Assembly: GCA_938048455.1 (NCBI GenBank) | Contig: CALIUY010000002.1 | Span: 1 to 64,000, forward strand | Reading direction: 5' to 3' | From: an uncultured Desulfobacterales bacterium | GTDB taxonomy: Bacteria; Desulfobacterota; Desulfobacteria; Desulfobacterales; SpSt-501 | DNA length: 64,000 nucleotides | Program-made: the position numbers and the translations under genes | The notes under the pieces: model-generated | Seen by the model: the letters and a program-made list of their open reading frames with translations, nothing else | The model's database searches: none | What the model was told of the DNA's origin: nothing | Shown here: positions 18,935 through 48,104 of the stretch, in pieces | Position numbering within the stretch: the first letter of the stretch is position 1 | Layout of the letters: each line of letters starts with the position of its first letter

Positions 18935-19009
18935 GCGGGAATAACTCAGTGGTAGAGTGCGACCTTGCCAAGGTCGAAGTCGCGGGTTCAAATCCCGTTT
19001 CCCGCTCCA
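18935..19009 (+). tRNA. tRNA-Gly (GCC)
   Basis: gcgggaa...ttcccgc acceptor stem, anticodon stem-loop gaccttGCCaaggtc, T-arm ggttcaaatcc, encoded CCA. Confidence 0.95.
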
Positions 19010-19018
19010 TTTTTTTTA

Positions 19019-19093
19019 GGCGGCATAGCCAAGTGGGAAGGCAGTGGTCTGCAAAACCACTATTCCCCGGTTCGAATCCGGGTGCCGCCTCCA
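19019..19093 (+). tRNA. tRNA-Cys (GCA)
   Basis: ggcggca...tgccgcc acceptor stem, anticodon stem-loop gtggtctGCAaaaccac, T-arm ggttcgaatcc, encoded CCA. Confidence 0.95.
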
Positions 19094-19197: not shown

Positions 19198-20652
19198 TCA
19201 CGAACTCTCCATCGCCTCGGCCGATGACGCCTTCGGGCCTCCGAGCGCAAGCGATTTGCCGCGCGTGCGCTTCATGCGTTCGATGGCGATGCGGATCGAT
19301 TCCTGCATGCGGCCGATGGCGGCGGCAAGCTCGCCGATTTCGTTCTTGGAGCGAACCGCGATGCGTACCTCCAGGTCTCCCGTCGAGATCCGCTCCGCAG
19401 CCTCCGTGAGTTCCCGGATCGGCCTGACGATCGCCCGGCTCGAAAGCACGGCGACCAGGAGCACCAGCGCCACCGTGGCGGCCAGGAGGGCGGCGGCGAA
19501 GATCATCGCCTCACGAATGAGGGCGAACACCTCCTCTTCATCCTGCTGGATGGCGACCTTCCAGCTCAGGCGGGTGGCCTGAACGAAGCCCACTTTTTCC
19601 GATCCGTTCTCTTGAAAACGGATCATGCCCGGTCCTTCCGTCTGGAAACGAGCGATGAGCGGGTGGCCGGAGAGGTTCTTCTCGGAGCGGGTCAAGCTTT
19701 CGTCCTGGTGGGCGACGACCTTGCCCGTCTGGTCCACCAGGAAGGCCAAGCCGCTTTTCCCTTTTCGCCATTTGGCGATCTGATCGGAGATCGCCTCGAC
19801 ATGCATCGCCGAGCAGAGCGCGCCGATCACTCGCTCGCCATCGCGGATGGGCACGGCGAGGATGAGGGCGGGCTTGCCGGAGGTGCGGCCGATGAGGGTC
19901 TGCCAGGAGAACGGTTTTTTCTCGCGCACCACGTCCTTGTAGTATTGACGGTCGGAGTAATCCGTCAGCGGTTTGCCGTCGCTTCGCGAAATGTTCCTCC
20001 CGGCTTCGTCGACCGTGAACACGAGATATTTCCAAGGGTAGTTCGCCTGAATGCTCTTGAGAAGCGGCTCCTGGTTCGCCGGCGCCATGGACCGCATGGC
20101 CTCCAGATCCGCCGCGGTCTGAAGGATGCGCAAGTTTTTGTCCACCCACTCGTCCACCTGGGCGGTGAGGCCCGAGACGATCTGCCGGCCCGTGTGATCG
20201 GTTTCGGCTTCCATTCGCTGCATGGTCTCAAAATGGACGACGACCGCATAGATGGACAGGGGAAGCAGACTCGCCAAAAGCATGAAGAGGGCCACCTTGC
20301 CGGTCAACCCCGAGAAGGCGGACCTGCGGCGCGGGGTTTCCTCGGGCAATAGATCTTCGACCGCTGCCACATTTGCCGGGGCGTCAAGGAGCTGCGGTTT
20401 CTTCGGGGGAAGAGAAGCCGCCTCCGGGGGCGCTTTGGGCTTTCTCTCGACGGCGGCCACTTCCCCCACGGCGCTCGGGCCGAGGGCGCGGGTGGCGAAG
20501 AACGAGGCCCAGCTCTGGCCGGGCTTTTTGGTGAGCGGTTCCTTGTAGCCGCAGGCCGAGCACTTGAAGGCGATCTTGTCGCGGGCGTCGCTCAGGGTTT
20601 CAGGATCGACGATTTTGAAATCCTTGCCGCATTTCGTGCACCGGATGTTCAT
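19198..20652 (-). CDS. Zinc-ribbon / Cache / HAMP sensor lacking a recognisable output domain
   Basis: MNIRCTKCGKDFKIVDPETLSDARDKIAFKCSACGY (MJ0042-like zinc finger), two TM segments flanking a Cache-like domain, HAMP RAIVRPIRELTEAAERISTGDLEVRI, ends ~40 aa later. Confidence 0.75.
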   Translation of the reverse strand: MNIRCTKCGKDFKIVDPETLSDARDKIAFKCSACGYKEPLTKKPGQSWASFFATRALGPSAVGEVAAVERKPKAPPEAASLPPKKPQLLDAPANVAAVEDLLPEETPRRRSAFSGLTGKVALFMLLASLLPLSIYAVVVHFETMQRMEAETDHTGRQIVSGLTAQVDEWVDKNLRILQTAADLEAMRSMAPANQEPLLKSIQANYPWKYLVFTVDEAGRNISRSDGKPLTDYSDRQYYKDVVREKKPFSWQTLIGRTSGKPALILAVPIRDGERVIGALCSAMHVEAISDQIAKWRKGKSGLAFLVDQTGKVVAHQDESLTRSEKNLSGHPLIARFQTEGPGMIRFQENGSEKVGFVQATRLSWKVAIQQDEEEVFALIREAMIFAAALLAATVALVLLVAVLSSRAIVRPIRELTEAAERISTGDLEVRIAVRSKNEIGELAAAIGRMQESIRIAIERMKRTRGKSLALGGPKASSAEAMESS

Positions 20653-20686
20653 GGCGCCGGGCTCCTTTTCAATCAAAGGCTTTTCT

Positions 20687-21154
20687 TCAGGCCGCCGACG
20701 GATTCAAGGTTTGCATCAGTTCGGACATGCGACGGCGGAAGGCTTGGGCCATTTCGGGGTTCTTGATTTCCGCGCAGAGATCGTCGGTCAGGGCGGGAAA
20801 GAGCCGCACGGGGAAATCCTCGGCGGCATGGCCCATGGCCTCGATCTTCTCGATCAAAACGAATTCGCCCAAGGGGCCGAGGATCTTGATCATCCACCCC
20901 TGGATCCGCTGCAAGAGCTCCAGCGGCACCCGCGGCTCGAAGAGGGCGACGAGTTCCTGTTTTTCGAGTTCCTTGACGGCCTTGGCGACTTCATCGAGCC
21001 GCATCCCCAGACGCCGGCCGATTTCCTCGAGGGTGCGCCTGCCGTCGATTTCCAGCAGCACCCGCAGCGACGCCCCCGAAAGCAGCTTGACATCGCTTTC
21101 ACTGAAATTCGTTGTGCGGCGATAGACACTATCGTCGGCGAGGGGCTGTCCCAT
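20687..21154 (-). CDS. Winged-helix-like hypothetical protein
   Basis: LSGASLRVLLEIDGRRTLEEIGRRLGMRLDEVAKAVKELEKQELVALFEPR resembles a wHTH segment; conserved-looking C-terminal helical domain. Confidence 0.55.
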   Translation of the reverse strand: MGQPLADDSVYRRTTNFSESDVKLLSGASLRVLLEIDGRRTLEEIGRRLGMRLDEVAKAVKELEKQELVALFEPRVPLELLQRIQGWMIKILGPLGEFVLIEKIEAMGHAAEDFPVRLFPALTDDLCAEIKNPEMAQAFRRRMSELMQTLNPSAA

Positions 21155-21292
21155 GGATCCTCTCCCGCTTTCCGCCGGATGCCGCTGAACGCCCCCCTCT
21201 GCCGCAGCATGGGCGGGGTGCCCGCGACACGGGGATGACCTCTCCGCAGCGGCGGTGTCCCGAGAGTGCCGGACGTTGGGATCCGCTCTTGA

Positions 21293-22348
21293 TCAAGAGC
21301 CGAAAGTCGGGCCTCGGGGATCCTTCCGGAATCCCAGACCGTTCAACAAGGCGGCATGGCCGGCGAACCATGCCGCCGCTTTTTCCTGAAACGGACCCTT
21401 CAAACCCAAAGAAGCGACGACCGTCTGCACGCAATCGAGTATCCCGGCGGCGAGCAAGCGATCCTCGACCGGGATCTCGAGGTGTATTCTCCCTTCCGCA
21501 TAATGGAACTCCTTGGCGAAGGGGTCGAGGAACCCATACCGGTCCGCCGCCTGGAGAGCGGCTTTGCGCCACAGGGCCCCGAAATCGGCGGCTTTGCGCT
21601 GCTCCCGGCAAAGCGATTCGACAAGTTGCAAAAGCTCCTCCAGCGCCGCAATCAACCCCCGGCCGTTTTCTGCGGATTGCCTCCGGGAATCGAGGGGCTT
21701 GCGGTTTTTTTCCCCTCGAAGGGGGGTCCCGTCGATCGGGATCGTCCGGCTTTCCTCCGGAACCGAAACGGTGCTGACCTGAAAGGATCCGCCTTTGGCC
21801 TTGATCTCCTCGGACAGACGGCTGCGCACGGAGGCGATCGATTGCGGGGACTCGCTCGAGTCAAGGCGGGCATGGACGATTTCGCCGGCTTGGAAGAAAA
21901 GAATCCCGGAGATCGATCCGTCGTGGGATGCCGCCTCGATGAAGCCGTTGAGCCGTTCGCGGGACATCTTCGTGATCAGGCGATCCAGATCCGTGATGTC
22001 GCTGGTGAGGTCGCGGTGCAGGGGACGGGCGTTGATCGCCTGGGCCCAGAAACGGACCAGCGCGGGATCGATTTCGTATACGCTGACCTGGAAATTCTGC
22101 CGTTCGGATGCCTCGAGAAGCAAGGCGGCGGCCTGCTCATCCTGCAGGGTCTTCTGACCGCTTACGCAGAAGGCCCCGATGCATTCGCCGGAATCGAGAT
22201 AAAATACCCCCTCGGTGGTCGCCGCTTTCAGGTGAATCGCGCAGGCGGAGGATTCGTTCCGATGGTGATCGATAAATTTCGGCAGGTGGAGATAATACGA
22301 TTGCAGACCCTTCAGGATGGGCTTTTCCACCGGGATGACAAGCCTCAT
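21293..22348 (-). CDS. DUF4388-like protein (possibly tandem domains)
   Basis: TTEGVFYLDSGECIGAFCVSGQK and NGFIEAASHDGSISGILFFQAGEIVHARLD resemble the DUF4388 pattern also seen at 44.8 kb. Confidence 0.5.
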   Translation of the reverse strand: MRLVIPVEKPILKGLQSYYLHLPKFIDHHRNESSACAIHLKAATTEGVFYLDSGECIGAFCVSGQKTLQDEQAAALLLEASERQNFQVSVYEIDPALVRFWAQAINARPLHRDLTSDITDLDRLITKMSRERLNGFIEAASHDGSISGILFFQAGEIVHARLDSSESPQSIASVRSRLSEEIKAKGGSFQVSTVSVPEESRTIPIDGTPLRGEKNRKPLDSRRQSAENGRGLIAALEELLQLVESLCREQRKAADFGALWRKAALQAADRYGFLDPFAKEFHYAEGRIHLEIPVEDRLLAAGILDCVQTVVASLGLKGPFQEKAAAWFAGHAALLNGLGFRKDPRGPTFGS

Positions 22349-22527: not shown

Positions 22528-25416
22528 CTATCCGTTCCCCGAAGTTTCGCTGCGGGTGATTTTCCGGAGTGCTTGAGCGAGGTCGTTCATGGTGAGGGGC
22601 TTGTAGAGGAAGGCCTGGATCCCGCAGCCGCGGGCTTTTTCTTCGTTGGTCTTATCGGAAAAGCCGGTGCAGAGGACGATGGGGGTGTGGGGCCGGATTT
22701 GGAGGATTTCTTTGGCCAGGCTCATCCCGTTCATGTGGGGCATGGTCATGTCGGTGACGACGGCGGTGAATTTTTCCGGGTTGGCGCGAAAGGCGGCCAA
22801 GGCCTCCAGCGGAGAGGTCCGGGGCTCGGGGGTGTAGCCCAGATGCGCGAGCATGTGGCGGCCGAGCTCCACCAAGGCGGGTTCGTCGTCGACGAAGAGC
22901 ACGGTGCCTGAGCCGCGGGGAATTTCCCGGGCGGCGGGCGTGAGGGGTTCGGTGGAGGGAAGGGTTTCGGCGGCGGGGAGAAAGATGTGCATTTCGGTCC
23001 CTTTTTCGGGTTCGCTGTAGACGCGAAGGAAGCCGCCGTGGTTTTTGACGATGCCGTGGACGACGGCCAAGCCGAGGCCGGTTCCCTTGCCGGCGGGTTT
23101 GGTGGTGAAGTAGGGGTCGAAGATGCGGTTCAGGTGTTCGGGGGGGATGCCGCAGCCGGTGTCGGCGACGGTGAGGTGGAGGAAGGTGCCGGGTTCGGTG
23201 TCGGGCTGGAAGCGGAGGTCTTCGGCGGAAAGCTGGGCGGTTTCGAGACGGATTTCGATGGTGCCGCCGTCCTGGTCTTCCATGGCGTGGGCGGCGTTGG
23301 TGCAGAGGTTCATGAGGACCTGCTGCATCTGGGTGGGATCGGCCAGGAGGGCGGGAAGGTGGGCCTCGATGTGTTGTCGGACCTCGATGGAGGCGGGCAG
23401 GGTGGATTTGAGGAACTGCCAGGTTTCCTTGACGACGGGTTTGAGGTTGAGCAGGATTTTCTCCTGGGTGCCGCGGCGGCTGAAGGCGAGGATCTGCTTG
23501 ATGAGCTCCTTGGCGCGGCCGGAGGCGGCCAGGAGCTGTCGAAGGCAGGCGCGGTCGGCCTCGGAGAGGCCCTCGGAGAGCTCCAGAAGGTTGGCGTTGC
23601 CGATGATGACGGCGAGGATGTTGTTGAAGTCGTGGGCCACCCCGCCGGCCAGCGTGCCGATCGCCTCGATCTTTTGCGCCTGCTGGAGCTGCAGTTCCAG
23701 CTTGCGCCGCTCCTGCTCGGCCTGGACCCGGCCGCTCATGTCGGTCACGAAGGCGTAGGCAATCCCCTCGCCCTCGTGAAAGAAAAAGCTGACGGTGATT
23801 TCGACGGGAAAGAGGGTACCGTCCTTGCGGCGAAGCCTTCGCTGGATGACCGCCGAATGGGTTTGGCGAAGCAGCTTTCGGAATTCCCGAAAGCTCTCCC
23901 AAGTATAGTCCGGATCCACATCGAGAACCGTCCTCTGCAGAAGTTCTTCCCGGTTGTAGCCCAGCATGCGGCAGGCATGCTCGTTGACCTCCAGGAAACG
24001 GGCGTCATCGGCGATGCGGAAAATCCCCATCGCCGCATTGTCGATGCAGAAGCGGGCCAGCCGCAGCTCATCCTCGGCCTTCCGGCGCTGGGTGATGTTC
24101 TGGATGAGCGAGACGAAGTGCAGTGCTTGCCCTTCGGGGTTGCGGGCCAGGTGAATGTGGAAGATCGTCCAGACGACGCTTCCGTCGCGATGCAAAAGCC
24201 GCCGCTCGTGGTGCCCATACTGAATGCGGCCGCTTAAAAGGTCCTCCAAGATCCTTCTGCGTTCCTCGCGGTCCTCGGGGTGAACGAAACGTTCGACCGC
24301 CTGGCCGATCAACCGGCTGGGCTCGTAGCCGATCATGGCCGCAAGCGTCCGGTTCACCTCGAGAAAGACGCCCTCCGGGGAGACGATGCTCATGCCGATC
24401 GAGGCCTCTTCGAAGGCCCGGCGGTAACGCGCTTCGCTGCGGGCAAGCTCCAGCCGGGCCCGATTCATGTCTGCGATCTGACGGTGGATCTGTTCTCCCA
24501 TCTTCTCGTAGGTGCGGGCGAGCTTGCCGATCTCGTCGTCCCGTTCCCGCACCGCGGTCGTTTCAGGTGTGGAGGAAGGATCGGCCCCAAAGCGCTCCAC
24601 CGCTTGGGCGAGATCATGAATGGGCTGGATGAGGGTCTGGACGGTTCGTCGGTTGAGAAAATAAAGCGTCAAGAGCGTCACCCCCAAAACGAGGCCCAAC
24701 GCCAGGAGGATCTGGTGAATTTTCGCCTCGGTGTAGTGGGTGAGTTCGCGCTCGACCGCGCGTCCCAGATCGCTGGCAATTCGGGCGGCCCCCATGAACT
24801 CTTCCAGGTAGGTGGTGGCCGCGGCCATGAGGGTACGGCCGGAGACGGGGACCTGCACGGGGCAGACCGCCATGTATTTGCGGGTCCGGAATTGGTCCGG
24901 TTCGATCCACTCGTAAAAGCCCGCATCTTCCTTGCCCTCCGGCGGAGCGTTGTAGATGTTCCACCAATCGGGGAGCGTTTCGGCGAGTCCCGCCAGGGAA
25001 CGGTCGATCAGGTCGGGATTGGGGTGGAAGCGCATGATGCCCGTTCCGGCCTCGTAGAGCGCCGTGTACCCCGTGATGCCGACGCGCTGGATGGCGATGC
25101 GGGAGAAGACCTCGCTTCGGCGGAGCTCTTCGATCGTCACGTCCGGGTGTTCGCGGAGGTAGGCCTCGACTTGCCCGGCGACATCCTTGGCGCGGGCCAT
25201 GATCTGAAGGCCGCCGTCGCCGGAGACCATGAGTTCGATCATCGATTCCAGGCGCTGGAGCGACCCCGTGATCAACTGCGTCACGTGGTGCCGGGCGGCC
25301 AAGGCCCCTGCGGCCAGGACGAGAAAAAAGACGAGCAGCGGGGCCACCGACAGCGCAAGCATGTTGCGTCGGAGGCTGTCGGCCAGCGATCGACGCGGAA
25401 TCAACGGCTCCGCCAT
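22528..25416 (-). CDS. Hybrid sensor histidine kinase (TM sensor-HAMP-PAS-PAS-HisKA-HATPase-REC)
   Basis: Start MAEPLIPRRSLADSL; GGVAHDFNNILAVIIGNANLLEL (H box), DTGCGIPPEHLNRIFDPYFTTKPAGKGTGLGLAVVHGIV, C-terminal VLFVDDEPALVELGRHML..VVTDMTMPHMNGM. Confidence 0.92.
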   Translation of the reverse strand: MAEPLIPRRSLADSLRRNMLALSVAPLLVFFLVLAAGALAARHHVTQLITGSLQRLESMIELMVSGDGGLQIMARAKDVAGQVEAYLREHPDVTIEELRRSEVFSRIAIQRVGITGYTALYEAGTGIMRFHPNPDLIDRSLAGLAETLPDWWNIYNAPPEGKEDAGFYEWIEPDQFRTRKYMAVCPVQVPVSGRTLMAAATTYLEEFMGAARIASDLGRAVERELTHYTEAKIHQILLALGLVLGVTLLTLYFLNRRTVQTLIQPIHDLAQAVERFGADPSSTPETTAVRERDDEIGKLARTYEKMGEQIHRQIADMNRARLELARSEARYRRAFEEASIGMSIVSPEGVFLEVNRTLAAMIGYEPSRLIGQAVERFVHPEDREERRRILEDLLSGRIQYGHHERRLLHRDGSVVWTIFHIHLARNPEGQALHFVSLIQNITQRRKAEDELRLARFCIDNAAMGIFRIADDARFLEVNEHACRMLGYNREELLQRTVLDVDPDYTWESFREFRKLLRQTHSAVIQRRLRRKDGTLFPVEITVSFFFHEGEGIAYAFVTDMSGRVQAEQERRKLELQLQQAQKIEAIGTLAGGVAHDFNNILAVIIGNANLLELSEGLSEADRACLRQLLAASGRAKELIKQILAFSRRGTQEKILLNLKPVVKETWQFLKSTLPASIEVRQHIEAHLPALLADPTQMQQVLMNLCTNAAHAMEDQDGGTIEIRLETAQLSAEDLRFQPDTEPGTFLHLTVADTGCGIPPEHLNRIFDPYFTTKPAGKGTGLGLAVVHGIVKNHGGFLRVYSEPEKGTEMHIFLPAAETLPSTEPLTPAAREIPRGSGTVLFVDDEPALVELGRHMLAHLGYTPEPRTSPLEALAAFRANPEKFTAVVTDMTMPHMNGMSLAKEILQIRPHTPIVLCTGFSDKTNEEKARGCGIQAFLYKPLTMNDLAQALRKITRSETSGNG

Positions 25417-25659
25417 CGGAACCCTCCTTCCTGTCTTGTTCTCCCTGCCCTGAAGGTGCGCCCGCGGAGTGATGCCGCCGAGTTTCCTCGTTATGCCTTT
25501 CGATCCCGCTGCAGAATCCCTTTGCAAAGGGGTATCGTTACATCACCCGTCGGACTTTAGAGCGTAGGGAGGGTTTGCCGCCCGCCGCCGCTCCGCTGCG
25601 GGCCACGCGGCGGAGCGATCGTTCGGGGCCTTTGTCCGCGGGCAATGCCTGAAAAAGCC

Positions 25660-28356
25660 TCACGGCGTTCCTCGAGGGAGAGCGCCGGAAACGACCCTTT
25701 GCAACGCGTCGGCCAGCTCGGCCAGGGTAAGCGGTTTGTAGAGAAAGGCGCGGACACCGGCGGCGCGGGCCTTCTCCTCTACGCCCTGGTCGCTGAAGCC
25801 GGTGCAGAGAATCACGGGAATTGCGGGATGGATTTCCAACAATCGTCTGGCCAGCTGCACGCCGTTCATTTGAGGCATGGTGAGGTCGGTGACGACCGCC
25901 CGATAGCGAAGGGGATGGCTGCGGAAGGCTTCCAGGGCTTCGATCGGGCTGGTTCGGGTTTCCGGGCTGTAGCCGAGGCGGGCGAGCATCTGGCGTCCCA
26001 TTTCGGCGAGCGCCGGCTCGTCGTCCACGAACAGGACTCCCCCCTCGCCCCGCGGGATCGTCGTTGGGGAAGGCGGGGGTGGCGCCTCGGCCGTGAGCGG
26101 TGTCGCCGCGGGCAGGTAGACCTGGATTTCGGTTCTGAGGCCGAGCCGGCTTTCGACGTGGATGAATCCTCCGTGCTGACTCACGATGCCGTGAACGACC
26201 GAGAGACCGAGCCCCGTTCCTTTGCCGGGCGGTTTGGTGGTGAAGTAAGGATCGAAGATGCGATCGCGAATGCGCGGATCGATGCCACAGCCGGTGTCGG
26301 CGACGGCGATGCGGACAAAGCGGCCGGCCTCGATCCCGGTTTGATAGCGCGCCTCCTCCTCGGAGAGCTCTACCGGCTCGAGGCGGATCTCCATCCGCTG
26401 CCGCTCGGAGTTTTCCATGGCATGGGCGGCGTTGGTGCAGAGGTTCATGAGCACTTGCTGGATCTGGGTGGGGTCGGCCAGAACCGGCGGCAACTCGCTC
26501 GGAATGAACGCATGGATCTCGATCGAGGAGGGAATCGTCGATTTGAGGAATTGCACGGTCTCCTGGACGAGCGGCTTGAGGTTGAGCAGGATTTTTTCCT
26601 GGAAGCCGCGGCGGCTGAAGGCCAGCACCTGCTTGACGAGCCCGCGGGCCCGGCCGGCGGCGGCCAGGATCTGCTGCAGGCTTGCTCGTTCGCCTGCGGA
26701 AAGCGATCCGGAAAGTTCGAGAAGATTGGCGTTGCCGATGATGACGGCGAGGATGTTGTTGAAATCGTGGGCCACCCCGCCGGCGAGCGTCCCGATCGCC
26801 TCCATCTTCTGGGCCTGCTGAAGCTGCATCTCCAGGCGTTTTCTTTCCTCTTCGGCCTGCCGGATCTCGGTCAGATCGATCACCACGCCGCGCAGGCCGA
26901 CCGGCATTTCGTCTTTCAGGATCTTTCCCGCCAGGATCCGCACCGGAAAGGAGCTTCCGTCCTTGCGCAGCGCCATGTATTCGGGAGAATCGATCTTCTT
27001 CCCGTCGAGGATCCCGCGAATGTCTCGGGCGATGCGCTCCCGGTCTTGCGGCGCGAAGGCATCGAGCACATGGAAGCCGGAGGCGAGGTCTTCCGGCCGG
27101 TACCCGAAGAGGGTGTGCCCTTTCTGGTTGAGATAGATCAGGTGGCCCTCGGCATCGATTTCGAAGATCCCCTGCGGCAGGAACTCGGCGAGCTCGCGGT
27201 ACTTGCGCTCGGCCTCCTGGAGCTGGCGGTCGATCTCGCGCATGCGGGTGATGTCGCGGGTGATCGAGAGGATCACCTTTTCGCCCTGAAGCTCGAGCAC
27301 CCGGGCGGACATGAGGCCGATCCCGGTCTTTCCGGATTTACGGCGGAAACGCGCCTCCAGGTTTTCGACATGCCCTCCCTGTTGCAATCCCTCGATCAGA
27401 CGCTCGCGGTCGCGGGGGTCGTCCCAGATGTCGAGCTCAAAGGAGGTTCTGCCGATCGTCTCCTCCCGCGTGTAGCCGGTCAGGCGCGAAAAGCCCTCGT
27501 TGATGTCGAGAAAGAGGCCGTCGGCGAGGCGGTTCAGGTTGATCGCATCGGGGCTCGTGTGGAAGGCGAGCCGGAATTTTTCCTCGCTCTGCCGCAATGC
27601 CTCCTCGAATTTGCGGCGTTCAGTGACATCGGTGATGAACCCCTCGATCGCCAGACATTCGCCTGAGGGCGCGAAGACCCCCTGGCCCGCCTCCCAGACC
27701 CATTTTTCTTCACCCGTTGCGGTCCGCAGGCGATAGCTGAGCTGAAACCGGCTGCGACGGCCGAGGGCCTCCTGGACGCCCGCCCAGACGGCGCGCCGAT
27801 CCTCGGGGTGGATGAGACGAGCGTAAGAGACCTCCCGGTTCCCGATGAGATGCTCCGGGGGATAGCCGGTCAGCTCAAGGCAACCCTCGCTCACATATTC
27901 CATGGTCCAGGAAGGATCGTTGCGGCAGCGGTAGGCCATGCCCGGCAGGTTGGCCCGGAGGGTGGCGAGGCGACGCTCGCTTTCGGCGAGGCGGGCTTCG
28001 GCCAGGGCGCGGTCCCCGGCATCGTGGACGAACGCACAAACCAAGTCCTGTCCTCTCCAGGCGAACGGGGAGGCGGCCACCTCTACGGTGACTGCCGAGC
28101 CGTCGGCCCGAAGGTGGCGATCGATCCAGATCCTGCCCGGGGACGGCCCGGTCTCGTTCGCGGGATCCCTCTGTGCCGGATCGGCGCTCAGCTGCCCGAA
28201 GGTCATCGCCTGCAGCTCTTCGGCGCGCCGGCCATAGAAACGGCAGGCCGCGGCGTTCGCCGCCAGGATCTTTCCCGTTTCCCGCTCCAACAGCAGGATC
28301 GAAACCGGCGCCTCCTCGAAGAAGCGCTCGAAAACCTCCGACCGTGTTTTCTCCAT
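25660..28356 (-). CDS. Soluble hybrid sensor histidine kinase (multi-PAS-HisKA-HATPase-REC)
   Basis: Several PAS/PAC blocks (TGYTREETIG, FGYRPEDLASG), GGVAHDFNNILAVIIGNANLLEL, DTGCGIDPRIRDRIFDPYFTTKPPGKGTGLGLSVVHGIV, VLFVDDEPALAEMGRQML; no TM segment. Confidence 0.92.
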   Translation of the reverse strand: MEKTRSEVFERFFEEAPVSILLLERETGKILAANAAACRFYGRRAEELQAMTFGQLSADPAQRDPANETGPSPGRIWIDRHLRADGSAVTVEVAASPFAWRGQDLVCAFVHDAGDRALAEARLAESERRLATLRANLPGMAYRCRNDPSWTMEYVSEGCLELTGYPPEHLIGNREVSYARLIHPEDRRAVWAGVQEALGRRSRFQLSYRLRTATGEEKWVWEAGQGVFAPSGECLAIEGFITDVTERRKFEEALRQSEEKFRLAFHTSPDAINLNRLADGLFLDINEGFSRLTGYTREETIGRTSFELDIWDDPRDRERLIEGLQQGGHVENLEARFRRKSGKTGIGLMSARVLELQGEKVILSITRDITRMREIDRQLQEAERKYRELAEFLPQGIFEIDAEGHLIYLNQKGHTLFGYRPEDLASGFHVLDAFAPQDRERIARDIRGILDGKKIDSPEYMALRKDGSSFPVRILAGKILKDEMPVGLRGVVIDLTEIRQAEEERKRLEMQLQQAQKMEAIGTLAGGVAHDFNNILAVIIGNANLLELSGSLSAGERASLQQILAAAGRARGLVKQVLAFSRRGFQEKILLNLKPLVQETVQFLKSTIPSSIEIHAFIPSELPPVLADPTQIQQVLMNLCTNAAHAMENSERQRMEIRLEPVELSEEEARYQTGIEAGRFVRIAVADTGCGIDPRIRDRIFDPYFTTKPPGKGTGLGLSVVHGIVSQHGGFIHVESRLGLRTEIQVYLPAATPLTAEAPPPPSPTTIPRGEGGVLFVDDEPALAEMGRQMLARLGYSPETRTSPIEALEAFRSHPLRYRAVVTDLTMPQMNGVQLARRLLEIHPAIPVILCTGFSDQGVEEKARAAGVRAFLYKPLTLAELADALQRVVSGALPRGTP

Positions 28357-33672: not shown

Positions 33673-35559
33673 ATGAAACTCTCGCTGTCCCAACGGGTCA
33701 TCGCGGCGGTTCTGGTATCGGCATTGATCGGAAGCAGCGCCGCGGTCATTTCTTCGTTCATGCTGCTGCGCGGCTTCGAGCGGCAGGCGCAGATGGATGT
33801 CCAGAAATTTTCGACCGCCGCTCAGGATCTGATGGATATGCAACGGGAACGTTGCCGCGAGGCGGCCTTCCAGTTCGCCTCCCGGCCGGATGTCGCGGAG
33901 GCCGTGAAACAGGGTGACGGCGAAGCCTTGCAGAAGATCGCCAAGGCCTTTCTCGCCTCCGGAGCCGTCAATGTCCTCACCGTGGCGGGGCCGGACGGCA
34001 AGGTCCTGGCGCGGGGCCATGCCGACAAAAGGGGGGATTCGGTCCTCAATCAGTTGAACGTCAAGAAGGCCCTTTCCGGCGAGGCGGCCGCGGGGATCGA
34101 GGAAGGCACAGTCGTCAAGTTTTCCATGCGCGCCGGGCAGCCGATCCGCAACGGCGAATCCGTCGTCGGCTCGGTGACTACGGGAATCGACCTCTCGGGA
34201 GACACGCGCTTCGTCGATCGCGTGAAAGAGGTGCTGGGGGTGGAGTGCACCCTGTTCCACGGCGACACGAGGGTTTCCACGACCCTGGTTCGCGAGGGCA
34301 AACGCGCGGTCGGAACGCGCATGGACAATCCGGCGGTGATCGAAACGGTGCTTCGCCAGGGAAAGAGCTACCAGACGACGAACCGCATCCTGGACCGCGA
34401 ATACAACACGAGCTACTGGCCGATCCGTGACCTCGAAGGGAAGATCCTGGGGATGTTTTTCATCGGCAAGGACCGCGATGCCGTCGTCCAGGCGCAACAG
34501 GAAATGATTCTGACCGTCGCCGCGGTGGTCGCCGGGGTGATCGCTCTGATGGCGATCGGCGCCTTTTTCATCGCCCGCTCGATCGCCGGTCCCATCCAGC
34601 GCGTGAGCGGAGGCTTATCCGAGAGCACGGGTCGGGTGACGAGCGTTTCCGCCCAGGTTTCGGCAACGAGCCAAATGCTCTCCGACGGCGCCTCGGAGCA
34701 GGCCGCCGCGATCGAGGAGACCTCCTCCTCGCTCGAGGAGATGGCCTCCATGACGAAGCACAACGCGGAGAACGCCTCCCAGGCCGACGGGCTGATGAAG
34801 CAGGTGGCGCAGCTCGTCGGCGAGGCGAACGGGTCCATGGAGAAGCTCTCCGGCTCGATGGAGGAGATCCGGAAGGCGAGCGAGGAGACGCAGAAGATCG
34901 TCAAGACGATCGATGAGATCGCTTTCCAGACGAACCTTCTCGCCTTGAATGCGGCCGTCGAGGCGGCCCGGGCCGGGGAGGCGGGCGCGGGCTTCGCCGT
35001 CGTCGCCGACGAGGTGCGCAACCTCGCCATGCGGGCCGCCGATTCGGCGCGGAACACCGCCGCCCTGATTGAGGGCACGGTGAGCAAGGTGAAGGGCGGC
35101 GCCGGGCTGATGAAGGAGACCCGCGAGTCCTTCGCGCGGGTCGTCCAGAGTGCCGGCAAAGTCGCCGACCTTCTGGCCGAAATCGCCGCCGCCTCGCGGG
35201 AGCAGTCCCAGGGGATCGACCAGATCAACAAGGCCGTCGGCGAGATGGACAAGGTGACGCAGCAGAACGCCGCTCACGCCGAAGAGTCCGCCGCGGCGGC
35301 CGTCGAGCTCTCCTCCCAGGCCGGCCGGATGCAGGAGATGGTCGGCCGGCTGCTGAATCTGATCGGCGGGAAAGGGGGCGAGCTGAAGGGCGAAAATGAG
35401 ACTCCGAGCGCTTCCGCCGGGCCCGCCCCCGGCAAGCTTCCTGCGGCGGTCAATCCGACCCCCCCCGGAAAGACGCCCCAGGCGGTGGCGGCGAAAACCG
35501 CCCCCCGCAGGGCGGAGCGGATCCTTCCGCTCGCGAACGAGGAATTCAAGGACTTCTGA
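33673..35559 (+). CDS. Methyl-accepting chemotaxis protein (Cache sensor)
   Basis: Periplasmic Cache region with [33 protein letters not shown]; hairpin tip [38 protein letters not shown]. Confidence 0.95.
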
Positions 35560-42579: not shown

Positions 42580-42993
42580 GTGTCCTATACCCTGGACCAG
42601 AGGCAGCTCGACCGCATCGAGGACATCCTCAAGGCCGACCTGGTCGACAACGGCGTGCGCTGCGTGTTCCTGATCGACATGGCCGGGAACATCATCACCC
42701 ATCTGGACAACGGGGAGAAGCAGCACGACATCTACTCCCTGGCGGCGCTCGCGGCGGGAAACTTCGGGGCGGTCAGCGCCATGGCCAAGATCATCGGGGA
42801 GAACGAATTTTCGCTGCTCTTCCACAAAGGGAAAAAGGAGAACATCCATTTCAACAAGATTTCCTCCGAATTCCTGCTGATCACGATTTTCGGCAACGAA
42901 ATCTCGCTCGGTTTTCTGCGGATGAAGGTGGCCGAGTCGGTCGAGCAGTTGAAAGAGGTCCTCGCACCGCTCGTTCCCGCGACCGACGGCTGA
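42580..42993 (+). CDS. Roadblock/LC7 domain protein (MglB-like), GTG start
   Basis: RIEDILKADLVDNGVRCVFLIDMAGNIITHLDNGEKQHDIYSLAALAAGNFGAVSAMAKIIGENEFSLLFHKGKKENIHF. Confidence 0.87.
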   Translation: MSYTLDQRQLDRIEDILKADLVDNGVRCVFLIDMAGNIITHLDNGEKQHDIYSLAALAAGNFGAVSAMAKIIGENEFSLLFHKGKKENIHFNKISSEFLLITIFGNEISLGFLRMKVAESVEQLKEVLAPLVPATDG

Positions 42994-43040
42994 ACGCTCT
43001 TTTGCAGGCCGGAAAAAACGAGGGCGACAGAATCGGGGCG

Positions 43041-43646
43041 ATGGCGTTTATCAACCTCAAAAACAAGATCATCCAGGTGAAGATCGTCTACTACGGCCCG
43101 GGCCGGGGCGGGAAGACGACCAATCTGGAATACATCCATCGCCGTTTTCAGGAACGGATCCACGCCGAGATGGTGACCGTGAAGACCCATGGCGACCGCA
43201 CGCTCTTTTTCGATTTTTTGCCCTTCGACATCGGCTTGATCCACGGCTACCGGATCAAGGTGCAACTCTATACCGTCCCGGGGCAGCCGAAATACAACGC
43301 GACCCGCAAGCTCGTGCTCCGCGGCGTGGACGGGATCGTGTTCGTGGCCGACTCGATGGCGATCTGCCGGGAAAGCAACATGCAATCGCTCAAGAATCTG
43401 CAGGAGAATCTGGCCGCCTACCGCAAAAGCCTGGAAAGCGTGCCCTGGGTGCTGCAGTACAACAAGATCGATCTCGCCGAACAGGGCATCCCGGTGCTCT
43501 CCGTCGAGCAGCTCGAACGGGACCTGAACCGCGGCTACGGCAGACCCTCGTTTCCGGCGAGCGCCCTGAAAGGGGTGAACGTGGCGGCGACGCTGAAGAA
43601 GATCCTCTCGCTCGCCGTCACTTCGATCCGCGACGAGATGATGTAG
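43041..43646 (+). CDS. MglA-like small Ras-type GTPase
   Basis: VKIVYYGPGRGGKTTNLEYIHRRF, GDRTLFFDFLPFDIGLIHGYRIKVQLYTVPGQPKYNATRKLVLRGVDGIVFVADS, LQYNKIDL. Confidence 0.95.
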   Translation: MAFINLKNKIIQVKIVYYGPGRGGKTTNLEYIHRRFQERIHAEMVTVKTHGDRTLFFDFLPFDIGLIHGYRIKVQLYTVPGQPKYNATRKLVLRGVDGIVFVADSMAICRESNMQSLKNLQENLAAYRKSLESVPWVLQYNKIDLAEQGIPVLSVEQLERDLNRGYGRPSFPASALKGVNVAATLKKILSLAVTSIRDEMM

Positions 43647-43659
43647 AAGGAGGCCGCCC

Positions 43660-44301
43660 ATGGCCGACGCGATGCCCAGCGACGCCCTGGAAAGCGAGCT
43701 CGAACGCCGCTTGGAGCAGCTCTTCCCCGAAGAGGGGGCGGGGCCGGAGACGAACTCCGCGCCCCGGCGGGAACCGGACCGGGCGTTGCTGTCCGAGTTG
43801 AAAAAGGTTGTGCTGGCGATCGACTGGGAGATCACCCCCGAGGCGGTCGCCTCTTTCCTCGACCAGGTGCGCCTGCTGCGCGAGGCCTTGCGGGAAGACC
43901 GCGTGGCCGGCGTGCTGCTGAACATGCTGGGAGCCCTCGGCTACTACATCCAGTCGAGTCGCAGCCAGGTGCACCCCTGGACCTTCCCGGTGTTGAACGC
44001 CGTTTTCGCCCGGCTCGAGGAGGTGGTCGCCCTGACCGACAAGCCCGAAGCCGAGCGCCGCCGTCGCATCCAGCCGGAAATCAACGCCTACCAGCAGTTG
44101 CGCACCAAGATCGCCCAGGGACGGCCGCGTCGTCCCGCCGAAGCGCCCAGGGAGTCGGCGCCCCCGGCGGACGGAGGGGAACGGGAACGGCCCCTCACCG
44201 CCGAGGCTCTCGCCCGCGCGCTCGCCGAGCTGCGCGAGCAGCTGCTCGCCGAAATCCGTTCGCTTCGCCTGCTGCTCGAAGCGAAGGAGGCCGGTCGATG
44301 A
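43660..44301 (+). CDS. Helical hypothetical protein in GTPase cluster
   Basis: MADAMPSDALESELERRLEQLFPEE.., C-terminal coiled-coil ALAELREQLLAEIRSLRLLLEAKEAG; same-direction gene with 4-nt overlap to the next. Confidence 0.7.
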   Translation: MADAMPSDALESELERRLEQLFPEEGAGPETNSAPRREPDRALLSELKKVVLAIDWEITPEAVASFLDQVRLLREALREDRVAGVLLNMLGALGYYIQSSRSQVHPWTFPVLNAVFARLEEVVALTDKPEAERRRRIQPEINAYQQLRTKIAQGRPRRPAEAPRESAPPADGGERERPLTAEALARALAELREQLLAEIRSLRLLLEAKEAGR

Positions 44302-45320
44302 CCGCCGAAGCCCTCGTCGGGGATCCTCGAGTCTGTATTCTCCTTGTGGACGACGACCGGGAGATGCTGCGCGAGCTGGGCCAAGTCCTTGGCCGGCGGC
44401 TGGGAGAGGATGCGGCCGCGATCCTGTTCGCCGAGGAAGGCGGGGAAGCGCTGGAAATCCTGCAACGGGAGCCGGTCGGCGTGTTGGTCAGCGATCTCAA
44501 GATGGTCGGAATGGACGGCTGGGAGCTGCTGCAGCGCGCGACGTGCGAATTTCCCGATGTCCCGGTGATGGTGATGACGGGGTATGCGACCCCCGAGACC
44601 GTCGCGCGGCTGCACGAGCAGGGGGCTTGCGCGGTTTTGGCTAAGCCTTTTCTCGTCTCCGAGCTTGCCGGGCGGATCCGGGAAATCCTTGCGCGGCAGA
44701 CCGATGGAGGGCTGATCCGCGGAATCTCCCCCTCGCTTTTTCTGCAGGTCGTGGAAATGGAAGAAAAGACCTGCACCATCCGCCTGAGCGGAACAGGCGA
44801 GCGACGCCGGGGCGTTCTTTTTTTCCGGGGGGGGAAACTCTTCGATGCCCGGTTGGGAGCGACGCGCGGGGAAAGCGCGGCCCGGGAGATCCTCGCCTGG
44901 GATCAGGCCGTCCTGGCGATCGAGAACGCCTGCCCCCTGCGCGACCGGAGGATCCGGCGCGATCTTCACGGGCTGATGATCGATGCCGCATGCCGTCGCG
45001 ACGAGCGGACGGAGGCCGAAGGCGCAGGGGGGAAGGAGCAGGACCCGCAAGTTGAGTTGGAGGCGGTTCGGCGCGCCCTCGAGCAGGCCCTGGGAGGCGA
45101 AGGGGGGGTCGGGGCGGTGCGACGGGACCCGCAGTGGGCCGAGCGCGCCCGGCGTCTTGCCCGCGCGGGAGAACGCGTGGGTCTCGGCGGGATGATCGCG
45201 GCCTTTCTTGACCGGGGGCAGGAGGGCGATTTTCTCCTCCCCGGGGGAAACGACCCCTGGGTGGCGGAGCTCCGCAAAGGAATCCCGCGGGACGCCCTGC
45301 TCGGGGTGCCGGGCGGTTGA
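44298..45320 (+). CDS. Response regulator (REC) with DUF4388-like effector domain
   Basis: ILLVDDDREMLRELGQVLG..VLVSDLKMVGMDGWELLQRA..VMTGYATPE..AVLAKPF; then ISPSLFLQVVEMEEKTCTIRLSGTGERRRGVLFFRGGKLFDARLG. Confidence 0.87.
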   Translation: MTAEALVGDPRVCILLVDDDREMLRELGQVLGRRLGEDAAAILFAEEGGEALEILQREPVGVLVSDLKMVGMDGWELLQRATCEFPDVPVMVMTGYATPETVARLHEQGACAVLAKPFLVSELAGRIREILARQTDGGLIRGISPSLFLQVVEMEEKTCTIRLSGTGERRRGVLFFRGGKLFDARLGATRGESAAREILAWDQAVLAIENACPLRDRRIRRDLHGLMIDAACRRDERTEAEGAGGKEQDPQVELEAVRRALEQALGGEGGVGAVRRDPQWAERARRLARAGERVGLGGMIAAFLDRGQEGDFLLPGGNDPWVAELRKGIPRDALLGVPGG

Positions 45321-45336
45321 TGGAGGCGAAACGACG

Positions 45337-45744
45337 ATGCCCGATCCGCTTGCGGCCCTGCTTTCCGTGGAAGGCGTGCGCGGGGTTTTTCTTTACCGCT
45401 CCGGAGGCGATCTGCTGTTCCGAAAAACAGCCGTCACCCTGAACGGCGCATCTCCGGCGGACTGGTTCGCCCTGGCGCTGGCGCTCGGCAACGCCCGGGA
45501 GGCCGAGATCCTTTTTGAGCGCGGCCGGGTTTACGTGCTTCGCTCCGCCGGCGCCGTGCTCGTGGTCGCCGCGGGGCTTTTCGCCCCCTCGGCCGTGATC
45601 CGCATGAGCGGCGCCGTCTTGCTGGCCGAGGTGGAAGGAGCGCTGGGGACCCAGCGTGGGGGCAGGGAGGGGGACTCCGCCCATCGTCCGGGGGGGAGCG
45701 GGGTCCTCCAGCCCCGCGAATTCGCGAAAGGCGTGTCGCCATGA
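45337..45744 (+). CDS. Short Roadblock/LC7-like protein
   Basis: LSVEGVRGVFLYRSGGDLLFRKTAVTL...FERGRVYVLRSAGAVLVVAAGLFAPSAVIRM: Roadblock-like pattern. Confidence 0.55.
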   Translation: MPDPLAALLSVEGVRGVFLYRSGGDLLFRKTAVTLNGASPADWFALALALGNAREAEILFERGRVYVLRSAGAVLVVAAGLFAPSAVIRMSGAVLLAEVEGALGTQRGGREGDSAHRPGGSGVLQPREFAKGVSP

Positions 45745-48104
45745 TGAAGACGGACATTGAGAGCCGGATCAACGAGGCCGAAGTTTGCCGTTCCATGGGC
45801 TTGTTTCACGAGTCGCTGGCGATCTACGAGAAGGTCCTGCCCTTGGTCACCCCCGAGGCGGGCGACCTCCAGGAGCGCATCCGCAGCCGCATCGACTTGC
45901 TGCGCCAGGAGATCGCCAAGGAAGAAGCGGGGAGCGGAGGTGCGGTCTCCGCCGAGGAGATCTCCTGGATCCGCGAAGCCATTTCCGCCGCCGATGACGA
46001 GGCGGCGCTTCTCGACAGCGCCTCGGCGTTTCAAGAAATGGGGCTTTTCGCCGAGGCGCTGAACGAATACACGAAAGCCCTGGCCGAGCCCGCGCTTCAC
46101 GAGAAGGCCGTCCCGGGGGTGGTCGCCTGTCTGCTGCGGCTGCATCCGCTGTCGCGGTTCATTGCCGAGCTCGAGGCCATCCTCGAAAAGGCCGTTTCCG
46201 ACCCGGCCGTTGCCGGCCGCATCCGGTTCTTGGCCGGAATCGAGATGGAAAAACGGGAGCACCGCGGCCAGGCGCACGATCTCTACCGGGCGGCCGCGGA
46301 ACGGCTGCCGCAGGACCCCGAGGTCCGCAAACGCCTCGAGGAGATCGCCGCGAGCTTCGCCTCCGGCTCCAAGTACGACTATCTCCTGCGCGAGAAGCTG
46401 CTGACCGCCGATCAGCTGCAGAAGGCCTTCGGCCTGGCGCGCAAGTCCAACCGCAGCGTGGAGCAGATCCTGATCGACAGCTTCCAGGTCCCCAAGGAAG
46501 CGATCGGCAAATCCTTCTCGCTGCACTACGGCTGCCGCTTCCTTGCCTTCGACCCCACGCTCCCGGCGCCGGTCGAGCTTTTGCAGAACCTGAAAAAAGC
46601 CTTTCTGCTGAACGAGCTCTGGGTGCCGATCGGCTGGAGCAAGGACGGCATCGAGGTCCTGGTCGACGACCCGCGGAACCTGAACAAGACCGACAACATC
46701 AAGGCCCTGTTGAAGACCTCGAAGATCCTCGTGTCGGTGGCGATCCGCGAGGACATCCAGGCCTTCATCCATCTCTTTTTCGATCCGGGAAAACAGCAGG
46801 AGACCGGCACGCCGACGGAGGAAATCACCGACGACATCGATATCCCCGACATCACCTTCGAGGAGGAGCGCGAGGAAATCCACACCGAGGAAGTCGACGA
46901 GAGCTCCAGCCAGGTCGTCAAGCTCGTCGACCAGGTGATCATCGCCGCCTACCGCAAGAACGCCTCCGACATCCACATCGAGCCCTCGGTGGTCACCAAG
47001 GCGACGTCGATCCGCTTCCGGCTGGACGGCGTCTGCCAGGAGTACATGAAAATCCCCAACGCCATGGTGCGCGCCGTGGTTTCGCGCATCAAGATCATGG
47101 CCAACCTCGATATCGCCGAGCGGCGGCTGCCCCAGGACGGCAAGATCAAGTTCCGGCGCAAAGGGGTGCCGGCCTTCGAAATGCGGGTGGCCACGCTGCC
47201 CACGGCGGGAGGCTTCGAGGACGTGGTGCTGCGCATCCTCGCCTCCTCGGGGGCGATGAAGATCGACGAGATGGGGCTGACCGAACGCAACCTGAAGATC
47301 ATCCAGAAGATCGTTCTCAAACCCTATGGGCTGATCCTGGCCGTCGGCCCGACCGGCTCGGGCAAGACGACCACGCTGCACGCCCTGCTCGGCTACATCA
47401 ACAAGCCGGGGATCAAGATCTGGACCGCGGAGGACCCGATCGAGATCACCCAGCAGGGGCTGCGTCAGGTGGAGGTGAAACCCAAGATCGGGCTCGATTT
47501 CGCCCGCGTCATGCGTGCCTTTCTGCGGGCCGACCCCGACGTCATCATGATCGGGGAAATGCGCGACGAGGAGACGGCCTCGATTGCGATCGAAGCCTCC
47601 CTCACCGGGCACCTCGTCTTCTCCACGCTGCACACGAACAGCGCTCCGGAAACCGTGACCCGCCTGCTGGATATGGGCTTGAATGCGCTGAATTTTTCGG
47701 ACGCGTTTTTAGGCGTCCTCGCCCAGCGTCTGACCCGCAGGCTTTGCACCAACTGCCGCAAGGAGTATTTTCTCGGCAAAGACGAGTTCGAAGAGCTGCG
47801 ACAAGATTACGGGGCTTCGTGGTTCGATCGCACGGGGATCGAATACAGCGAGACCCTCAAGCTCTACCGGCCGATCGGCTGCGATGCCTGCTCGAAGACC
47901 GGCTACCGCGGCCGGATGGGGATCCATGAGCTGATGGAGGGAACTCCCGAAATCAAGCTCATGATCAAGAAGCAGGCGAACACCGAGGAGATCTTCCAGA
48001 TGGCGATGCGGCAGGGGATGAGCACCCTCAAACAGGACGGGATCCTGAAAGTCTTCCAAGGCGAAACCGACATCTCCGAAGTGCGCCGCGTCTGCATCAA
48101 CTGA
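45741..48104 (+). CDS. PilB/GspE-type secretion ATPase with N-terminal TPR-like region and MshEN-like domain
   Basis: AVGPTGSGKTTTLHALLGYINKPGIKIWTAEDPIEITQQGLRQVEVKPKIGLDFARVMRAFLRADPDVIMIGEMRDEETASIAIEASLTGHLVFSTLHTN; Cys pairs CTNC and CDAC; N-term FHESLAIYEKVLPL. Confidence 0.93.
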   Translation: MMKTDIESRINEAEVCRSMGLFHESLAIYEKVLPLVTPEAGDLQERIRSRIDLLRQEIAKEEAGSGGAVSAEEISWIREAISAADDEAALLDSASAFQEMGLFAEALNEYTKALAEPALHEKAVPGVVACLLRLHPLSRFIAELEAILEKAVSDPAVAGRIRFLAGIEMEKREHRGQAHDLYRAAAERLPQDPEVRKRLEEIAASFASGSKYDYLLREKLLTADQLQKAFGLARKSNRSVEQILIDSFQVPKEAIGKSFSLHYGCRFLAFDPTLPAPVELLQNLKKAFLLNELWVPIGWSKDGIEVLVDDPRNLNKTDNIKALLKTSKILVSVAIREDIQAFIHLFFDPGKQQETGTPTEEITDDIDIPDITFEEEREEIHTEEVDESSSQVVKLVDQVIIAAYRKNASDIHIEPSVVTKATSIRFRLDGVCQEYMKIPNAMVRAVVSRIKIMANLDIAERRLPQDGKIKFRRKGVPAFEMRVATLPTAGGFEDVVLRILASSGAMKIDEMGLTERNLKIIQKIVLKPYGLILAVGPTGSGKTTTLHALLGYINKPGIKIWTAEDPIEITQQGLRQVEVKPKIGLDFARVMRAFLRADPDVIMIGEMRDEETASIAIEASLTGHLVFSTLHTNSAPETVTRLLDMGLNALNFSDAFLGVLAQRLTRRLCTNCRKEYFLGKDEFEELRQDYGASWFDRTGIEYSETLKLYRPIGCDACSKTGYRGRMGIHELMEGTPEIKLMIKKQANTEEIFQMAMRQGMSTLKQDGILKVFQGETDISEVRRVCIN

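Follow-up and report, generated by a model that had tools for sequence, protein, structure and literature searches.

A HAMP-terminal receptor with a STAC-like adaptor as the probable input arm of a split MglA/PATAN/PilB operon in a Desulfobacterales bacterium

Introduction

The 64,000-nucleotide stretch of an uncultured Desulfobacterales bacterium considered here (GenBank assembly GCA_938048455.1, contig CALIUY010000002.1, positions 1 to 64,000; hereafter the window) carries three consecutive minus-strand genes, at 19198–20652, 20687–21154 and 21293–22348, which a sequence-only reading had described as encoding an output-less sensor, a winged helix-turn-helix (wHTH)-like protein and a DUF4388-like protein. 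All three genes are real. The sensor is a member of a conserved bacterial family of HAMP receptors without an output domain, its neighbor joins a winged helix to a domain that resembles archaeal STAC proteins, and the trio is probably the input side of an MglA/PATAN/PilB regulatory operon, here split in two, in which HAMP would hand the signal to STAC. The earlier suggestion that such a sensor may signal through a separately encoded neighbor is strongly supported by the pairing of receptor and adaptor genes, by a survey that started from STAC alone and by natural STAC fusions. The arrangement suggests that surface movement may be governed by a route from sensor to GTPase that would dispense with a kinase in the receptor.

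A receptor that ends after HAMP

The trio comprises the following genes.

19198–20652, minus strand: output-less receptor, 484 residues (Pfam, homolog alignment, inspection of transmembrane segments and ribosome-binding site)
20687–21154, minus strand: wHTH-STAC adaptor, 155 residues (structure model, Foldseek, profile against PDB, motif)
21293–22348, minus strand: tandem PATAN/DUF4388 protein, 351 residues (Pfam, half-to-half hhalign; model with a predicted local distance difference test score, pLDDT, of 79)

The receptor and adaptor genes are 34 nucleotides apart, the adaptor and PATAN genes 138. The receptor probably starts at the ATG at 20652 and not at the TTG at 20676, since an AAGGAG ribosome-binding site lies upstream of the former and homologs begin there. 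From this start the protein runs through a zinc ribbon (residues 1–36), a first transmembrane segment (~116–142), a periplasmic dCache_1 domain (146–368; Pfam E 6.2e-24), a second transmembrane segment (~378–411), HAMP (405–454 of 484; E 1.1e-17) and a 30-residue tail, and Pfam finds neither an MCPsignal nor a HATPase domain in it. The zinc ribbon, Cache and HAMP architecture without output was thus rightly recognized from the letters, as was the early stop, although the tail had been put at about 40 residues. Zn_ribbon_4 matches the window sensor at 0.0015 and its homologs down to 1.4e-11, and Cys5, Cys8, Cys31 and Cys34 of the ribbon are invariant in an alignment of 20 homologs.

A missing output domain could mean that a methyl-accepting chemotaxis protein (MCP) or kinase gene was truncated by a frameshift or an assembly error, or is decaying, and more distant relatives scanned do carry kinase or PAS domains (HisKA/HATPase/REC in locus L052, HAMP-PAS in locus L100). 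The homologs refute this idea, to which we give practically no credence: intact Desulfobacterales members, from many genomes and assemblies, stop 9–32 residues past HAMP, mostly with a basic RLRRKR tail directly before the stop codon, so that no frameshift is needed to explain the end of the window gene. Its 80–84% identity to the nearest relative and the invariant cysteines likewise speak for an unbroken gene. In a search of relatives' genomes and a single scan across 84,980 species genomes, the family proved nearly confined to Desulfobacterales, where it is found in 67 of the 243 genomes of the order (E ≤ 1e-30, a count that includes more distant, kinase-length matches). Just past the 3′ end of the receptor gene, on the opposite strand, lie genes for tRNA-Gly(gcc) and tRNA-Cys(gca) (18935–19093, plus strand).

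An adaptor with a STAC-like domain

The 155-residue neighbor had been called wHTH-like, which stands, albeit on a match below the Pfam threshold, but its C-terminal STAC-like domain had been overlooked. In the predicted structure (pLDDT 84.8), a winged helix at residues ~25–72 precedes a helical domain at ~78–150, with helices at 78–106 (containing the GP), 116–129 and 133–150 and an LGPLG motif at 92–96. A profile of the C-terminal part finds AF1502 (5A1Q) as its best PDB chain at E 0.018; upon addition of divergent members this match improves to 0.0053, while the next stays at 0.17. Foldseek places the same entry, a compact four-helix bundle, at probability 0.95 and a root-mean-square deviation of 2.7, in a match whose aligned region is not listed. 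The motif [LIV]GP-x(x)-[AG], counterpart of the LGPx(x)A that separates helices 1 and 2 of STAC domains, is present in 42/42 adaptor homologs, and within a set of 56 STAC sequences its G is invariant and its P at least 90% conserved. AF1503, a receptor without an effector whose HAMP is its sole cytosolic part, is often coupled to AF1502-type STAC proteins that carry LGPx(x)A (PMC4834066, Korycinski, Hartmann and Lupas). The top fold matches of the adaptor model are GATOR1 NPRL2/SEAC chains, which belong to eukaryotic Rag GTPase regulators, at only E 8e-3.

Neighborhoods were scored with profile hidden Markov models on six-frame open reading frames. In the sensor family, the wHTH-STAC gene lies directly upstream of the sensor in 43 of 46 loci, overlapping it by 4 nucleotides in five. 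The source genome has two output-less receptors of this kind and exactly two STAC-like genes, one next to each receptor. The second receptor (contig C51, 17420–18799; L002/G000) likewise consists of zinc ribbon, dCache and HAMP without output, has a wHTH-STAC gene upstream, is accompanied by a 144-residue Rrf2-like gene, and sits beside enolase and CTP synthase, in an arrangement that recurs in about 20 loci.

STAC as the starting point

The STAC profile alone was also searched against 395 genomes of the phylum, of which 58 had matches, and 40 loci were fetched; the sample is not wholly independent of the seed alignment, which came from sensor loci, but most matches fall in other families and orders, and the 40 loci favor stronger STAC matches. 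In 34 of these 40, an output-less HAMP receptor lies within 400 nucleotides on the same strand, 33 times downstream, and ends 0–8 residues past HAMP. Its sensory domain differs from receptor to receptor (dCache_1, sCache_2, Cache_3-Cache_2, zinc ribbon plus an unknown part); the HAMP end and STAC are constant. Many receptors of this class have no zinc ribbon, so HAMP is likely the common contact. The earlier reading had named HAMP or the ribbon; the former is favored, and the latter is downgraded as a required contact. The zinc ribbon of GltJ reportedly binds MglA, which is not counted as evidence here.

STAC also occurs fused to other domains. Four scanned STAC proteins of ~260–285 residues are DUF4388-wHTH-STAC (DUF4388 E 5e-19 to 1e-13), and others of this size look alike by profile. 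One protein, directly upstream of a receptor (L111), is REC-STAC, where REC denotes a receiver domain. Three proteins beside REC-PATAN regulators join STAC to RB2, a small roadblock-like protein of the window operon (hhalign P 8e-6 for RB2, 3e-10 for STAC), at these positions.

L104, 3686–4390: RB2-STAC fusion
L105, 6038–6742: RB2-STAC fusion
L112, 3207–3923: RB2-STAC fusion

Elsewhere, then, STAC is covalently joined to components of the window operon. These fusions bear on the idea that the adaptor is a transcription factor that the receptor tethers at the membrane and that ligand binding releases or activates for gene control, with linkage to MglA reflecting co-regulation only. Its winged helix resembles MarR/ZitR-type DNA-binding domains (E 2e-4, profile against PDB), HTH_47 matches 32 of 42 family members, and some receptor/STAC pairs stand outside the MglA operon, all of which speaks for such a factor. 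We nonetheless consider it unlikely, given that the REC-STAC and RB2-STAC proteins speak against a shared output through DNA binding, that the best whole-fold matches, though weak, are to NPRL2, part of a GTPase regulator, and that MfpC, the mycobacterial counterpart of the HTH protein of actinobacterial conservons, is reported to be a guanine nucleotide exchange factor (GEF; PMC13015309).

One operon, split in the window

The sequence-only reading had linked the trio, through the shared DUF4388 domain, to an MglA cluster 20 kb away, and the relatives bear this out. The plus-strand cluster consists of the following genes.

42580–42993, plus strand: roadblock/LC7 protein (MglB-like), first gene of this half (Pfam Robl_LC7 3e-8)
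43041–43646, plus strand: MglA small GTPase, Group-1-like (best PDB match Myxococcus xanthus MglA, E 1.7e-51)
43660–44301, plus strand: cl36, helical protein and operon marker (in 142 of 243 genomes of the order)
44298–45320, plus strand: response regulator, receiver plus PATAN/DUF4388 (Pfam; DUF4388 30.3 bits)
45337–45744, plus strand: RB2, weakly assigned as roadblock-like (hhalign to roadblock1 P 0.0095; conserved place in the operon)
45741–48104, plus strand: PilB-type motor ATPase, TPR-MshEN-T2SSE with an N-terminal TPR-like region (T2SSE 6e-122, MshEN 1.7e-10)

In relatives, both pieces form one recurring operon, roadblock-MglA-cl36-wHTH/STAC-sensor-PATAN-REC/PATAN-RB2-PilB (e.g., L059, L066, L075, L080, L051), some instances of which lack a single member or are cut short by the contig end. 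Two close relatives of the window (L057, L058) keep PATAN-REC/PATAN-RB2-wHTH/STAC-sensor together. The family tree groups the window sensor with those of the MglA operons (100/98); the branch found beside eno and pyrG, to which the paralog on contig C51 belongs, is separate (98/93). In the window, the operon is split.

Directly upstream of the trio, on the same strand, two adjacent paralogous PAS-HisKA-HATPase-REC kinases (22528–28356, minus strand) raise another prospect, namely that these hybrid histidine kinases, or MCP/kinase complexes, read HAMP in trans and that STAC is an accessory. In the nearest relative (L032), too, the PATAN gene follows the end of a receiver-domain gene, and the REC-PATAN regulator of the system needs a kinase. 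In other families, however, such kinases lie outside the conserved operon and the STAC pair lies inside it, and we judge a kinase in trans quite improbable.

A proposed path from periplasm to pilus motor

Cache-to-HAMP signaling is established for receptors in general. In the path that we favor, the dCache domain of the trio's receptor would sense a periplasmic ligand, and HAMP, which apart from the N-terminal zinc ribbon is the receptor's sole cytosolic domain, would pass the signal to STAC of the adaptor and not to a kinase or MCP domain fused to it. The winged helix of the adaptor would then act on the MglA/roadblock switch, the PATAN proteins or both, and these in turn would adjust how active the PilB-type motor is or its placement at the poles. 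The separate output protein of the earlier reading would thus be, specifically, the wHTH-STAC partner, and the PATAN protein would be a second component. We infer the handover from HAMP to STAC from their co-conservation and from the precedent of CbrA, whose STAC docks beneath the membrane domain (PMC13022988). The direction of signaling, an effect on the nucleotide state of MglA or a GEF-like role, and a type IV pilus (T4P) output are likewise presumed; the T4P connection here is gene linkage to a PilB-type ATPase.

Several observations weigh against this path. The trio lies 20 kb from the MglA half (42580–48104) and on the opposite strand. The same sensor/STAC pair occurs beside eno and pyrG in the type B branch, outside the MglA operon. 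As cl36 is commoner in the order than this sensor, the sensor is no obligate part of the MglA operon, and some MglA operons use other HAMP-terminal receptors. Six of the 40 STAC loci have no adjacent receptor (in two, one lies farther off; in four there is none). Finally, Pfam gives no match to the STAC-like domain of the adaptor, and homology to STAC is drawn from E-values of ~0.005–0.05, the motif, the fold match without a listed aligned region, and context; because these E-values are weak, we use the label "STAC-like".

It is possible, though doubtful, that HAMP-STAC pairs constitute a general class of kinase-independent transmembrane signaling, in which STAC would read HAMP and the wHTH, PATAN or roadblock-like part of the adaptor would serve as an MglA exchange factor or as an effector selector steering the pilus motor. 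Such a class, with interchangeable sensory domains, would be the bacterial counterpart of small G proteins under receptor control.

Relation to known systems

HAMP-only receptors with STAC are already known from archaea. Ever since AF1503, which supplied the prototype HAMP structure, proved to lack an effector, it has been asked how HAMP-only receptors produce an output. The present family offers bacterial counterparts that are tractable and have a named partner domain; its natural fusions show what STAC connects to, and its operon points to MglA and a pilus motor. It also suggests a way in which MglA may be reached by a periplasmic signal although the receptor has neither a kinase nor a chemotaxis array. 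We found no description of the bacterial HAMP-STAC class, of the PATAN/wHTH/REC/RB2-STAC fusions or of this operon in the openly accessible literature, although subscription papers, including the original STAC paper, may hold one.

The pair shares with AF1503/AF1502 of Archaeoglobus fulgidus a HAMP as sole C-terminal cytosolic domain and a STAC protein with LGPx(x)A that is coupled to it genomically and sometimes translationally (PMC4834066). It differs in being bacterial, in fusing STAC to wHTH, PATAN-wHTH, REC or roadblock-like domains, and in receptors that often carry an N-terminal zinc ribbon and Cache domains. Membrane transport genes are frequent, though not defining, neighbors of AF1503-type loci (PMC4834066), whereas the neighbors here are MglA/PATAN/PilB or eno/pyrG and not mainly solute transport genes.

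The actinobacterial conservon (CvnA-D, MfpB-E) similarly unites a membrane HAMP sensor, a roadblock protein, a small HTH protein and an MglA-family GTPase in one operon (PMC8510531, PMC4316618), and its HTH protein binds both sensor and GTPase (PMC8510531). Conservon membership of the window genes was considered and rejected: CvnC is a DUF742 protein, and a search of the source genome with PF05331 gives no match at the wHTH-STAC gene; the histidine kinase ATPase domain of conservon sensors is absent from this sensor; and conservons lack PATAN and PilB.

In Synechocystis, the response regulators PixG/PixE, which carry PATAN/DUF4388, act on the T4P extension motor PilB1, which PATAN regulators bind (PMC12288463); their input is chemotaxis-like or a photoreceptor, whereas here it would be an output-less receptor with STAC, plus MglA. 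In M. xanthus, a Group 1 MglA, to which the window MglA is closest, controls T4P in the Frz-RomR-MglA-SgmX-PilB pathway (PMC11580455). That pathway takes its input from the Frz chemosensory system, its genes are scattered, and the literature examined holds no STAC or HAMP-only receptor for it. Proximity of MglA and PATAN genes had earlier been noted as occasional (PMC4316618).

Other components of the operon

The 351-residue protein contains a degenerate PATAN copy (~8–96), a DUF4388 copy (~104–202) and C-terminal helices. Its designation as DUF4388-like holds just at threshold (PF14332, 25.1 vs 25 bits), and the degenerate copy adds a second instance, the two halves matching each other at hhalign P 4e-8. 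Foldseek of its model against PDB gives only low-probability sliding-clamp matches. The source genome yielded only three DUF4388 genes, two of them in the trio and the MglA half.

The window MglA has a P-loop, Thr78, TVPGQ in G3 and full-length similarity to MglA. The adjoining cl36, which matches no Pfam or other family, sits next to MglA in the operons examined and may be a partner dedicated to MglA. Among PDB entries, the PilB-type ATPase matches PilB 3jc8 best (E 4.8e-105), and the source genome has further T4P-type genes, namely PilM and several T2SSE ATPases. An MCPsignal match (33673–35559, plus strand), one of only four in the genome, lies between the operon's two separated halves.
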